From positions 62,001-126,000 of the forward strand of contig NZ_DS999545.1 in assembly GCF_000159015.1 (NCBI RefSeq): a stretch of DNA of 64,000 nucleotides, given 5' to 3'. This document shows positions 52,606 through 58,270 of the stretch, in pieces. The stretch is from Gleimia coleocanis DSM 15436. Lineage in GTDB: Bacteria > Actinomycetota > Actinomycetes > Actinomycetales > Actinomycetaceae. The notes under the pieces are model-generated. The model made no database searches. It was not told the DNA's origin and was given only the letters and a program-made list of their open reading frames with translations. Within the stretch, counting starts at the first letter, position 1. Each line of letters starts with the position of its first letter. Both the position numbers and the translations under genes were made by a program.

Positions 52606-53868
52606 ATGATTGATATTAAGGCTCTTCGCGAAAACCCAGAACCAGCTCGCCAGTCGCAGATTGCACGTGGTGCAGACCCAGCTCTTGTTGATGAAATCCT
52701 AGCCGCAGACGCTTTGCGTCGTAAGACTCTGACCGAGTTTGAACAAAAGCGTGCAGAACAAAAGGAAATCTCTCGCTCTATCGGAAAGGCAGCGAAAGAA
52801 GACCGTGAAGCTATCCTCACGCAGGCACAGGAACTAGCTAAGGAAGTTAAGGAACTGGAAGCACGCGCTACCGAAGCAGGCGCAAAGGCAGATGAACTTG
52901 CTCGCCGGATTCCAAACGTAATCGTAGACGGTGTGCCAACCGGCGGTGAAGACGCATACGTAGTACTTCGCCACGAAGGTACCCCACGCGAATTCGACTT
53001 CGAACCACAGGATCACCTGGCACTTGCAGAAGGCCTGAAAGCAATCGACATGAAGCGTGGCGCAAAGGTATCTGGCTCCCGCTTCTACTACCTGTCCGGC
53101 ATTGGCGCTCGCCTGGAACTCGCCCTGCTGACCATGGCACTGGACCAGGGTTTGAAGTACGGTTTCACTCCGCTTACCACCCCAACTCTGGTAACCCCAG
53201 AAATCATGGGCGGCACCGGCTTCCTCAACGAACACTCTGACGAAATCTACTACCTGCCAGCAGATGACCTTTACCTGACGGGTACTTCCGAAGTTGCTTT
53301 GGCTGGCTACCACAAGGACGAAATCCTAGAACTCAACGGCGAACCAGCTCGTTACCTAGGTTGGTCCACCTGTTACCGTCGTGAAGCTGGTTCTGCAGGT
53401 AAGGATACTCGTGGCATTATCCGCGTTCACCAGTTCAATAAGGTAGAAATGTTCTCCTTCTGCCCAGTTGAAGAAGCTGAAGCGGAACACGCTCGCTTCC
53501 TTGCTTGGGAAGAAGAAATGCTGCAGAAGATGGAACTCCCGTACCGTGTTATCGACACTGCAGCTGGTGATTTGGGTACTTCCGCTGCCCGTAAGTTTGA
53601 CTGTGAAGCTTGGTTGCCAACCCAGAATCGTTGGATGGAAGTTACCTCCACTTCGAACTGCACCACTTTCCAGGCTCGTCGCCTGAACATTCGTGAACGT
53701 GTAGACGGTGATACTCGCATCGTGGCTACCTTGAACGGTACTTTGGCTACCACCCGTTGGCTGGTTGCGTTCCTGGAAAACCACCAGAACGAGGACGGTT
53801 CCGTAAATGTTCCAGTCGCCCTGCGCCCATACTTAGGTGGCGTTGAAAAGCTGGAGCCAACTGCGTGA
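52606..53868 (+). CDS. serS: Serine-tRNA ligase
   Basis: Charges tRNA-Ser. 420 aa: N-terminal coiled-coil tRNA-binding arm (about 1-105, [20 protein letters not shown] onward), class II catalytic core with motif 2 around [24 protein letters not shown] and motif 3 [16 protein letters not shown]. Normal length. RBS AAAAGGAG. Its stop overlaps the next gene by 4 nt, coupling it to a HAD phosphatase. Two tRNA-Ser genes lie 5 kb downstream. Confidence 0.96.
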
Positions 53869-54767
53869 AAAAATCTTTCCTGACGCCTCCACCCACGTCC
53901 CTTCCTTTCATTGAGTTTGAGACGCAGGTGGAGGCGTCTCTCCATGCTTTGCCAACTGATTTGCCAGCAACCGCAGCGGAACTGCTGGTGGCTTTAGATA
54001 TCGACGGTACGTTATTAACTGAACATGGCGTAACTGAGGTGGTGCGCTCGCGGATGCGGAAGTTAAGCGAAGCTGGTGCGCAGATTATGATTGCGACCGG
54101 CAGAGGCTATAACGCGGTGTTGCCGTTTTTAGAGGAGCTAAGGATTCCCACTGGTTGGGTGGTGGCGTCCAATGGGGCGTTGCTTTTGCGGGTGCTTCCC
54201 GAGGGCGTTGAAGTAGTGGATGCGGAATTATTTGCAGCCGCTCCGGTTATAGATCTTGTCTTGGAGCGCCACCCGGATGCATTGATAGCTATTGAGGGTG
54301 AAAATTCTGGGACTTTAGTCTTTAAACCATTCCCGGAAGGGGAGCTCATTGGAGAGTGGCACACCGCTGAAATTGACATTCTGCGCAACGCCCTCGTAAG
54401 CAAAATTATCGTCCGTAAACCACACGTGGAACGCGACGAATTCGATGCCCAAATGAGTCTCCTAGACCTCTCTGAATACCAGATCGCCGTCGGCTGGACC
54501 GCCTGGATGGACGTCATTAAAAAAGGTATTTCGAAAGCCTGGCGACTGGAAGAAATGCGCAAGAAACTAAGGATTTGTGCACATTCAACCATTGCCGTAG
54601 GGGATGGTACCAATGACATCGAAATGCTTAAATGGGCACACTTCGGAGTTGCCATGGGGGACGCGCGTGACGAAGTAAAGCAAGCCGCCCAAGCCATCAC
54701 CGGACCCGTCGAATATGACGGTGCCGGAGCCGTTTTAGAAGCCCTAATCCGTCATTACAAACTCTGA
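53865..54767 (+). CDS. HAD-superfamily hydrolase (Cof-type)
   Basis: 300 aa. Motif [12 protein letters not shown], motif [12 protein letters not shown], Lys of motif III in the [15 protein letters not shown] stretch and motif [17 protein letters not shown], with a C2 cap between. Dephosphorylates small sugar or nucleotide phosphates. Overlaps serS by ATGA, a pairing seen in other actinobacteria. Holds a CCGAGGGCG at 54199 read as LPEGVE. The base style changes near 54370 from T/G to C-ending codons. Confidence 0.87.
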
Positions 54768-54880: not shown

Positions 54881-56983
54881 GTGACCACGAATCAGAACGA
54901 GCGTGAACTGACCGACGTCGAAAAGGAATGCTGGGAAGGTTTTGTAACCGGCAACTGGACTTCCGAAATCGACGTACGCGAATTCATTCAGCTGAACTAC
55001 CTGCCATACGAAGGCGACGAATCCTTCCTCTCTGGCCCAACTGAAAAGACCCTGCGCGTCTGGAAGACCCTGGAAAAGGACTACCTCTCCGTAGAACGCC
55101 AGAAGCGCGTTTACGACGTAGACACTGACACCCCAGCAGACGTTGACGCATTCCCAGCAGGCTACATTTCAGAAGATGATGACGTAGTAGTTGGTCTGCA
55201 GACCGACGTTCCACTGAAGCGCGCAATGATGCCAAACGGTGGCTGGCGTATGGTTGAAACCGCTATTCGCGAAGCAGGTAAAGAACCAAACCCAGATGTA
55301 AAGAAGATCTTCACCGAATACCGCAAGACCCACAACGACGCAGTATTCGACATCTACACCCCACGTATTCGTGCGGCACGTTCTTCCCACATCATCACCG
55401 GTCTGCCAGACGCCTACGGTCGTGGCCGCATCATCGGTGACTACCGCCGTGTAGCACTCTACGGTGTAGACCGCCTGATTGAGCTGAAGGAACGCGACAA
55501 GGATCGCTACGCAAATCAGCCATTCTCAGAACACTGGGCACGCTACCGTGAAGAACACTCAGAGCAGATTAAGGCTCTGAAGAAGCTCAAGTCCATGGCA
55601 GCACGCTACGGCTTTGACATTTCCCGCCCAGCAAACACTGCTCAGGAAGCAGTACAGTGGACCTACTTCGGCTACCTGGCATCTGTTAAGTCCCAGGACG
55701 GCGCAGCAATGTCCATCGGTCGTCTGTCCGGCTTCTTCGACATCTACTTCGAACGTGACTTCAAGCGCGGCATCCTGAACGAAGAAGGCGCACAGGAAAT
55801 CATCGACGCACTGGTAATCAAGCTGCGTATCATCCGCTTCCTGCGCACCATCGACTACGATGCAATCTTCTCTGGCGACCCATACTGGGCAACCTGGTCC
55901 GACGGTGGCTTCGGTGAAGACGGTCGTTCCCTGGTAACCAAGACCTCCTTCCGTCTGCTACAGACCCTGGTAAACCTTGGCCCAGCACCAGAACCAAATA
56001 TCACCCTATTCTGGTCCGAAAAACTGCCAGAAGGCTACAAGCGTTTCTGTGCACGTATTTCCATCGAAACTTCTTCTGTACAGTACGAAGCTGACGAACA
56101 GATTCGTTGCCAGTGGGGCGACGACGCTGCAATCGCCTGCTGCGTATCCCCAATGCAGATTGGTAAGCAGATGCAGTTCTTCGGCGCACGCGTAAATGCT
56201 GCAAAGGCACTGCTCTACGCCATCAACGGTGGTCGTGACGAAATGTCCGGTAAGCAGGTCGTAAAGGGCTACGAACCAATCAAGGGTGACGGCCCACTGG
56301 ACTTCGACGAAGTTTGGGAAAAGTACGAAGAAATGCTGGACTGGGTAGTAGGCACCTATGTTGAAGCACTCAACATCATTCACTACTGCCACGACCGTTA
56401 CGCATACGAATCCATGGAAATGGCGCTGCATGATTCCGAAATCATTCGCACCATGGGTTGTGGTATCGCAGGTCTGTCCATCGTGGCTGACTCCCTGTCT
56501 GCAATCAAGTACGCAAAGGTAACTCCTGTACGTGACGAAACCGGTCTGATTGTTGACTACGTAACCGAAGGTGAGTTCCCAGTCTACGGTAACGACGATG
56601 ACGCAGCTGACGACATTGCAGCAACTATCGTTCACACCGTAATGTCTAAGATCAAGTCCATCCCAATGTACCGTGACGCGATCCCAACTCAGTCCGTACT
56701 GACCATTACCTCTAACGTGGTTTACGGTAAGGCAACTGGTTCCTTCCCATCTGGCCACCGCGCAGGTACCCCATTCGCACCAGGTGCAAACCCAGAAAAC
56801 GGCTACGATACCCACGGCATGCTGGCTTCCATGCTGTCCGTAGGTAAGTTGGACTACAACGATGCACTCGACGGCATCTCCCTGACCAACACCATCGTTC
56901 CATCCTCCTTGGGTCGTAACCTGGACGAACAGATTACTAACCTAGTCGGCATCATGGATGCTGGATTCATCAAGAAGGGCTGA
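54881..56983 (+). CDS. pflB: Pyruvate formate-lyase core polypeptide lacking the glycyl-radical domain
   Basis: Cleaves pyruvate plus CoA to acetyl-CoA and formate. 700 aa with the catalytic Cys420-Cys421 pair ([19 protein letters not shown]) at the same place as in E. coli. The protein ends at [14 protein letters not shown], just before the linker to the C-terminal domain, and the RVSGYAV glycyl-radical segment is absent. That segment is encoded by the next gene. After the TGA the frame shows no homology, so it is not a simple stop. GTG start at 54881 behind AAAGGAG; codons are very uniform and C-ending, indicating high expression. Confidence 0.95.
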
Positions 56984-56994
56984 GAAACTCTCAG
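56980..56994 (+). other. Small hairpin over the pflB stop codon
   Basis: CTGAGA and TCTCAG around AAC. The stop codon TGA lies inside the 5' arm. It may protect the upstream mRNA end or set the ratio of core to radical subunit; inference. Confidence 0.5.
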
Positions 56995-57074
56995 GCTTTC
57001 TACCAAACAAAATGGGATTTCCCCGAATCGCCCTCGGGAAAATCCCCAAACCACCTAAAATTAGGAGAAACAAA

Positions 57075-57323
57075 ATGGCAACCTCTTTCGAAGATCGCCT
57101 GGCATCCATGAAGGCAAGCCGCGCTGCTACCGGTGGCGTAAAGGGCCTGTACCACGCAAACATCAACGTTCTGAACAAGGACACCCTGGTTGATGCAATG
57201 GAAAACCCAGAAAAGTACCCACAGCTGACCGTACGCGTATCCGGCTACGCAGTAAACTTCGTACGCCTCACCCGCGAACAGCAGCTGGACGTAATCTCCC
57301 GCACCTTCCACGATGGTATGTGA
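57075..57323 (+). CDS. Separate glycyl-radical domain subunit (GrcA-like C-terminal domain of PFL)
   Basis: 82 aa. Residues ~27-82 match the PFL C-terminus, with [21 protein letters not shown] and [13 protein letters not shown]; Gly57 is the radical site. The first ~23 residues are new ([20 protein letters not shown]). E. coli GrcA/YfiD repairs oxygen-cleaved PFL, but there the main enzyme keeps its own domain; here the main enzyme has none, so this subunit should be essential. ATG 57075 behind TTAGGAGAAAC. 91 nt separate it from pflB and include a CCGAGGGCG copy (57029, minus). Confidence 0.93.
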
Positions 57324-57352: not shown

Positions 57353-57450
57353 TAATCTAAATAAAGGATCGGGACGATAATGACTCTTGAAAACGCTTCC
57401 TACAACGGAGACGGCTCAACAGGGGAGTATCGTCCCGATCCTTTAGATTA
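57353..57450 (+). promoter_or_regulatory. 23-bp inverted repeat masking the pflA ribosome-binding site
   Basis: Left arm 57353-57379 (with a 4-nt bulge at 57361-57364) is complementary to 57428-57450: 15 contiguous pairs (AGGATCGGGACGATA) plus 8 more (TAATCTAA). The left arm contains AGGA and ends one base before the ATG at 57380; the right arm lies inside the pflA coding region, codons 17-24. When folded it would hide the ribosome site. Confidence 0.85.
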
Positions 57451-58270
57451 TGAAGTTCCCCGCGTTAAAGGTGCCGGTCTGGCCGGTATTGACGGTGCTG
57501 GAGAGCTTAGCCACCATGAACACCTCATGGCAGTGCGCGCCGGCGAAATCGGCTCTATGCACTCTTGGGAACTGGTAACTGCAGTGGATGGACCAGGCAC
57601 TCGTATGACCACGTTCCTCGCCGGATGTCCACTGCGTTGCCTCTACTGTCATAACCCGGACACTATGAAGATGCGTGACGGTACGGCAGTATATGCGGAT
57701 GAACTAATTAAGCGTATGGAACGCTATGCTCCCGTTTTTAAGGCATCAAACGGAGGGGTAACCTTTTCTGGCGGAGAGCCGCTCATGCAGCCGGCATTCT
57801 TGTTGAAACTACTCAAAGCTGCAAAAGAACGAGGAATCCACACCGCTATTGATACTTCTGGATTCCTTGGTGCACACGCATCTGACGAACTGTTAGAAAA
57901 TGTTGACCTGGTACTGCTCGATGTTAAGAGCGGTCTGCCTGATGTTTATGAAAAAACTACCGGACGCCAGCTGGAGCCAACCCTTAAATTCGGTCGCCGT
58001 CTAGCAGACATGAACAAGCGTATTTGGATTCGCTTCGTCCTGGTGCCGGGGTTAACCGACTCTGAAGAAAATGTTAATGCGGTAGCTGACATTGTAGCTT
58101 CCTGGGAGAGTGTAGAACGTGTCGAAGTGCTTCCATTTCATCAGATGGCTCGCGATAAATGGGCGGAACTGGGAATGGAATATGAACTCAGTGACGTGCA
58201 GCCACCAAGCAAGGAAGCAGCAGAAGCTGCAAGGGAAATCTTCCGTTCCAGAGGGCTACTTGTTTTCTGA
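57380..58270 (+). CDS. pflA: Pyruvate formate-lyase activating enzyme (radical SAM)
   Basis: Uses SAM and a [4Fe-4S] cluster to create the glycyl radical. 296 aa with cluster motif CPLRCLYC (C-x3-C-x2-C), GGVTFSGGEPLMQP and WIRFVLVPGLTDSEENV. About 60 residues longer at the N-terminus than E. coli PflA; bifidobacterial enzymes, as I recall, also have such an extension, so I keep ATG 57380. An ATG at 57528 would give a shorter, still complete enzyme. Its substrate glycine sits on the separate subunit encoded just upstream. Confidence 0.94.
   Translation: MTLENASYNGDGSTGEYRPDPLDYEVPRVKGAGLAGIDGAGELSHHEHLMAVRAGEIGSMHSWELVTAVDGPGTRMTTFLAGCPLRCLYCHNPDTMKMRDGTAVYADELIKRMERYAPVFKASNGGVTFSGGEPLMQPAFLLKLLKAAKERGIHTAIDTSGFLGAHASDELLENVDLVLLDVKSGLPDVYEKTTGRQLEPTLKFGRRLADMNKRIWIRFVLVPGLTDSEENVNAVADIVASWESVERVEVLPFHQMARDKWAELGMEYELSDVQPPSKEAAEAAREIFRSRGLLVF

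Follow-up and report, generated by a model that had tools for sequence, protein, structure and literature searches.

A locus of Gleimia coleocanis DSM 15436 very probably encodes an obligately two-chain pyruvate formate-lyase (PFL), as judged from comparison of its genes with those of relatives. The window, i.e. the whole stretch of DNA analysed, comprises 64,000 nucleotides of contig NZ_DS999545.1, and within it the catalytic core and the glycyl-radical domain are specified by separate, neighbouring genes. PFL is one of the main enzymes of fermentation, and oxygen destroys its radical. Three observations make a two-chain enzyme by far the best reading of the locus: the core lacks a radical site, profile searches of the genome found no complete PFL, and the split is common throughout the family.

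Organization of the locus

All features described here lie on the forward strand. The PFL core subunit gene (54881..56983) starts with GTG and encodes 700 aa that match PF02901 with 660 bits. Core residues 11-696 align to residues 4-693 of E. coli PFL, where homology ends and a short new tail, IKKG, begins. The catalytic Cys-Cys codons (56138..56143) specify C420-C421, corresponding to E. coli C418/C419. The core gene is followed by an intergenic stretch of 91 nt (56984..57074) with a Shine-Dalgarno-like AGGAG ahead of the glycyl-radical subunit gene (57075..57323). This gene encodes 82 aa counted from the ATG at 57075; note that its open frame extends upstream of that codon, and that the core ORF and the small ORF are in different reading frames. 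The small chain comprises an N-terminal extension of ∼20 residues followed by the equivalent of E. coli residues 698-758, including the radical glycine, Gly57 (codon 57243..57245; E. coli Gly734), within RVSGYAV. Placed on E. coli PFL, the two pieces show zero overlap and no duplication, with four linker residues between them. No counterpart of the core tail or of the ∼20 N-terminal residues of the small chain was found in the full-length PFLs aligned. The initial annotation had described a 700-aa core that keeps its cysteine pair and ends before the radical domain, an 82-aa gene 91 nt downstream with RVSGYAV, and a core without a radical site of its own, and all three descriptions held.

Downstream, pflA (57380..58270) encodes a radical-SAM activase of 296 aa (TIGR02493, 321 bits; cut-off 231.75). 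An extension of PflA was examined as a split-specific feature and rejected, since it is also present beside full-length PFLs. A GntR/FCD regulator gene lies downstream of pflA, and the gene at 53865-54767, upstream of the core, resembles a HAD-type hydrolase by eye. Neither of these two was retained as a conserved neighbour, because matches to them were confined to L052 and L053 among the 78 loci compared, of which 72 extend 2500 nt beyond the small gene.

When both chains were compared with the PFL profile TIGR01255, the core scored 986.8 bits over profile positions 2-679 of 744 and the small chain 81.3 bits over positions 682-744, so that together they span the profile. The core score is just below the cut-off of 994.2, which one chain alone thus does not reach. 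The catalytic Cys-Cys pair, the radical Gly and the substrate-site Arg and Trp are all present in the window pair.

Gene content of the source genome

Profile searches were performed on the whole source genome (1.72 Mb, 99.6% complete). PF02901 was matched at one place and PF01228 at two, these being the C-terminal piece of the core and the small gene. A second PFL or another PFL-type radical domain was not found by these searches of the 99.6%-complete genome, which answers the check for another full-length PFL proposed in the initial annotation. On this basis, PFL activity would need both chains. Pyruvate dehydrogenase E1 and the anaerobic ribonucleotide reductase NrdD are present, and a profile search of the genome found no POR_N. 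The organism therefore appears to resemble a facultative anaerobe, for which the two-chain PFL would be the oxygen-free route to acetyl-CoA.

Occurrence in the genus and family

Within the genus, the radical profile was found at two separate places in 9 of 11 genomes, all nine with the same split organization. In the remaining two (G002 and G005), the matches were to distantly related glycyl radical enzymes only (∼21% identity with the core), and these genomes were left out of the PFL-bearing count. In a sample of 200 family genomes, 183 had a TIGR01255 match; sorted by the best TIGR01255 score per genome, these comprised 144 with a radical-less core, 32 with a full-length PFL and 7 with weak matches only. 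The small chain of the window belongs to the NCBIfam family GrcA2 (NF008341, 158.8 bits; cut-off 145). GrcA2 was above its cut-off in 143 of the 200 genomes, and these account for all but one of the 144 with a radical-less core (the exception, G045, is 79% complete). The suggestion that related species share the split was thus well founded. No separate GrcA2 was found in any of the 32 full-length-PFL genomes of this sample, each of which gave one sub-threshold match to the GrcA2 profile, as the C-terminus of its own PFL does. Eleven family genomes gave two GrcA2-profile matches each.

The small protein could instead be a spare part in the manner of GrcA/YfiD, rescuing damaged PFL and not serving as a constant subunit. 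Its NCBIfam name, “autonomous glycyl radical cofactor GrcA2”, would suit such a role, as would the homology of its domain to YfiD (6owr). However, the PF02901 and PF01228 searches found no full-length PFL in the source genome for a spare part to repair, and the small chain scores far below the cut-off of the GrcA/YfiD equivalog family (TIGR04365, 86.5 versus 170). The strongest genomic argument for GrcA2 as a subunit, and not a spare, is that it and full-length PFL exclude each other in the family sample; although named an autonomous cofactor, it accompanies radical-less cores there. We consider a spare-part role very unlikely.

Named loci were taken from the best 80 of 524 matches, a biased set, in which 78 have the split organization. 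Among them are two loci with core identities of 96-97% to the window, and the core of a Gleimia sp. record is 97% identical. Split loci in this best 80 of 524 come from Actinomyces, Schaalia, Rothia, Mobiluncus, Trueperella, Arcanobacterium, Varibaculum, Corynebacterium, Propionibacteriaceae and others. Downstream of the pair, pflA was matched in all split loci but one (78 of 79); in the remaining locus, L106, the contig ends there. One split PFL, in a record titled Tissierella sp. Marseille-P2918 (L065), clusters with Varibaculum, and either this record or its label is probably wrong.

Conservation and selection

Fourteen E. coli positions were compared and found invariant in all 79 split pairs, the window pair included; the equivalents of R176, W333, C418, C419, R435, S733, G734 and Y735 are among those unchanged. 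The N-terminus of the small chain carries the motif [FY][DE]xR in 71 of 79 pairs, and R8 and M12 of the extension are invariant in 37 of 37 aligned rows (a subset of the 79). An AGGA-like ribosome site precedes the small gene in 65 of 79 split loci. Values of dN/dS were calculated by the Nei-Gojobori method for the window genes versus L052 and L053, respectively, and were 0.018/0.865 and 0.020/0.533 for the core and 0.005/0.422 and 0.011/0.261 for the small gene. Both genes are under strong purifying selection.

These data bear on whether the locus is a pseudogene produced by a recent frameshift or stop in a PFL gene, or by an assembly error. The different frames of the two parts are what such an event would leave. 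Against it stand the identical organization of 78 of 80 loci (best of 524) and of the 9 PFL-bearing genomes among 11 of the genus, the conserved extension with its invariant R8 and M12, the ribosome site at the small gene and the purifying selection. The relatives refute a pseudogene for practical purposes, its probability being negligible, and the same loci, the two with 96-97% core identity included, make a sequencing error, named in the initial annotation as a refuting case, very unlikely.

RNA features between the genes

The intergenic stretch contains a hairpin, GGGATTT...AAATCCC (57014..57046), without a T run. Its outer stem is kept in two close relatives with one A-U/U-A exchange. For a wider survey, the 79 loci were dereplicated to 56, and stretches were scored as folding better than shuffles when z was below −2. 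The gap between core and small gene is under 60 nt in 27 of the 56; 19 of the 29 longer gaps folded better than shuffles, as did 8 of 56 control stretches taken upstream and 9 of 56 taken inside the core. The 90 nt past the small gene folded much better than shuffles (z below −2) in 45 of 56 loci. A hairpin between core and small gene was therefore not upheld as a universal feature, given the 27 short gaps and the folding of the 3′ stretches. The folding past the small gene suggests that a hairpin between this gene and pflA could set their expression ratio.

Structure predictions

For AlphaFold2, the window pair was read through the stop as one chain of 813 residues with a 31-residue artificial linker, using a shallow alignment of 25 rows (the window pair and 24 relatives). 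The resulting model had a mean pLDDT of 67 and a pTM of 0.70, with low confidence in the linker, in several loops and around the Cys pair, where residues 415-434 had values below 50. Superposition on E. coli PFL (2pfl) gave Z 43.7 and an rmsd of 3.0 Å over 740 residues, with residues 8-813 of the model on 1-759 of the chain; two further full-length PFL entries matched at Z ∼35. The model shows a predicted fold for the pair that is compatible with that of PFL; PFL structures were surely in the AlphaFold training set, and docking of the free chains is beyond proof from this model because the chains were linked. The small chain alone was predicted to form a helix at residues 5-18, at low confidence (mean pLDDT 67.5, pTM 0.47).

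A second type of split

Strong matches to the GrcA2 profile (over 90 bits) were also collected from a phylum sample of 396 genomes. Of the 30 obtained, 2 were small genes of the window type, 21 were small genes of a different kind and 7 fell in full-length frames. All 21 of the other type lie downstream of a PFL core ending before the radical domain; note that the absence of this domain from second-type cores was checked on the phylum-sample loci. In the 20 pairs aligned, these cores stop at about E. coli residue 679, one helix earlier than in the window type, and have a new tail that is often acidic and contains Cys. The corresponding small chain carries the helix preceding the linker, is 83 aa long in 20 of 20 pairs and belongs to NCBIfam GrcA3 (NF038360). 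In the class of genome G500, which we infer to be Coriobacteriia, GrcA3 was above its cut-off in 37 of 149 genomes, and in 8 further genomes a full-length frame contained a PFL-like match of 103-125 bits.

Two radical-less cores are in the PDB, 38la with 687 aa and 38lb with 739 aa. They match a second-type core with 1079 and 1226 bits, respectively, versus 962 for E. coli PFL, and 38lb has the second-type core tail. The PDB matches to the small chains were YfiD and segments of full-length glycyl radical enzymes; a free small chain was not among them.

PFL hits were also obtained from plasmid and phage collections. A 109.8-kb contig classed as viral (IMGVR_UViG_3300028591_000126; L184, identical to L220) encodes a radical-less PFL core of 680 aa at 1926-4216 of L184, with a 78-aa small gene directly after it that scores 157.2 against GrcA3 (cut-off 158). 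This is possibly a phage-borne two-chain PFL. On viral contigs of 73 and 79 kb (L190/L214 and L203/L209), a small radical gene is followed by a PFL core broken into separate ORFs; ORFs alongside the first of these resemble NrdD, ThyX and a topoisomerase subunit by eye. A GrcA3-like small gene is also found on viral contigs L183, L185-L189, L191-L193, L196, L197, L201 and L202, with no PFL core match near it in the flanks fetched.

Origin of the splits

A single origin of both split types was rejected (p-AU 1.6e-70) in a test in which 22 and 9 split rows were constrained together versus 13 full-length rows and E. coli. This value should be read with the long branches of both split types in mind, and two Cellulomonas rows among the 13 full-length ones have their place inside the window lineage, so that their exclusion accounts for some 15 of the 217 units of likelihood loss. 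Separate origins of the window-type and GrcA3-type splits are favoured by these trees.

Full-length relatives of the window lineage contain the same two parts joined at the window cut point by short linkers, such as DAGM-GEGLFHANINV and [15 protein letters not shown], and are positioned in or beside the split clade. Eight such rows came from Cellulomonas and similar genomes and nine, forming a second group, from a family that is presumably Bifidobacteriaceae. In two Cellulomonas loci (L094 and L104), three genes follow one another: a 762-aa frame that includes a PFL-type radical domain, pflA, and a full-length member of the split lineage. A quick tree placed 79 split rows on one side of a branch with support of 83; in the tree of the single-origin test, the window-type split rows were not separated in this way. 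With the second full-length group left out, a split-only clade had a p-AU of 0.026 and was rejected; with its nine rows included, the p-AU was 0.226 and the clade was retained. One fission in the window lineage would be the simplest story, and full-length members that were re-fused instead of ancestral are also compatible with these trees.

The branch separating the core from ordinary actinobacterial PFL was ∼1.0 long, and ∼0.5 once the second full-length group was included. Such a long branch might point to a two-chain glycyl radical enzyme for another 2-oxo acid, e.g. 2-ketobutyrate, in place of pyruvate; homologues such as TdcE act on 2-ketobutyrate. The best family of the core is nevertheless TIGR01255 PFL, its compared active-site residues are identical to those of E. 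coli PFL, and searches of the genome found neither another PFL-like gene nor a POR_N match. A substrate other than pyruvate is accordingly held to be highly improbable.

Comparison with known systems

Relative to E. coli PflB (2PFL/1H16), the window core has 58% identity, the same catalytic residues, a pflA neighbour and, in the linked model, the same fold; PflB, however, is a single chain of 759 residues with its own radical glycine, whereas the window PFL is cut between residues 693 and 698. YfiD/GrcA (6OWR) is likewise small, and its PFL-type radical domain acts on a core that has none. As described in PMC8683613, YfiD has 127 aa with a disordered N-terminus of 60 residues, and restores PFL that oxygen has cleaved at 734 and that keeps residues 1-733. 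In contrast, the core partner in the window type is always without a radical domain; the small-chain extension is ∼20 residues long with a conserved motif and a weakly predicted helix. That two-chain catalysis is chemically sound follows from E. coli PflB G734A, which, according to PMC12338860, makes formate in vivo with GrcA and none without it.

The closest artificial counterpart is an engineered E. coli pair, tPFL(1-695) and YfiD, whose core cut is nearly identical to that of the window. In Andorfer 2021 (PMC8683613), this pair bound too weakly for measurement and formed 32-fold less radical than 1-733 with YfiD, although it functioned normally once activated. A pair cut near 695 is thus not automatically functional. 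In the natural small chain the extension is a different one and is conserved, and the natural pair must have solved recognition differently; the N-terminal extension is a candidate recognition element. GrcA3 pairs of Coriobacteriia-like genomes also appear to form two-chain PFLs, but differ from the window type in their earlier cut, new core tail and favoured separate origin.

Proposed mechanism

In the two-chain enzyme proposed, the core would form the barrel and bear the Cys-Cys pair. The HANINV strand of the small chain would dock as the missing last barrel strand, with the Gly loop inserted into the active site. By analogy with work on E. coli YfiD, PflA would generate the radical at Gly57 once the small chain had docked, the radical would then move to a core cysteine, and pyruvate and CoA would be converted to acetyl-CoA and formate. 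Docking of the free chains, activation order, activity and substrate are all presumed here. Oxygen would cut the small chain only, which might then be exchanged while the core was kept; cheap renewal after oxygen damage is a plausible benefit of the split.

A broader proposal, about which we are rather more doubtful than confident, is that at least two bacterial lineages independently put the oxygen-labile PFL radical site on a disposable subunit. The emergency repair of E. coli would thereby have been made normal, with small chains swapped on a long-lived core after each oxygen hit and the N-terminal extension in place of the E. coli recognition element; at least one large phage may bear a two-chain PFL.

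Implications

The initial annotation had supposed that an obligately two-chain PFL was undescribed. This stands insofar as no description of a split or two-chain PFL, or of GrcA2 or GrcA3, was found among the open-access PMC papers listed. It does not stand for the components, since NCBI has named GrcA2 and GrcA3 as autonomous cofactors and two second-type radical-less cores are in the PDB; others are evidently working on split PFL.

The results suggest that database entries for “truncated” PFLs and for “autonomous cofactors” are in many cases the complementary halves of a single enzyme, and that the PFL radical domain is detachable at two different points. In another bacterial class, the split seems to have evolved a second time at a different cut. 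Because the artificial E. coli pair activates poorly, natural pairs test the spare-part model, and they offer a direct test of radical-subunit recognition, activation and exchange that the engineered pair only approached. For common host-associated bacteria, the labile part of PFL would be a separate, small and possibly replaceable protein.
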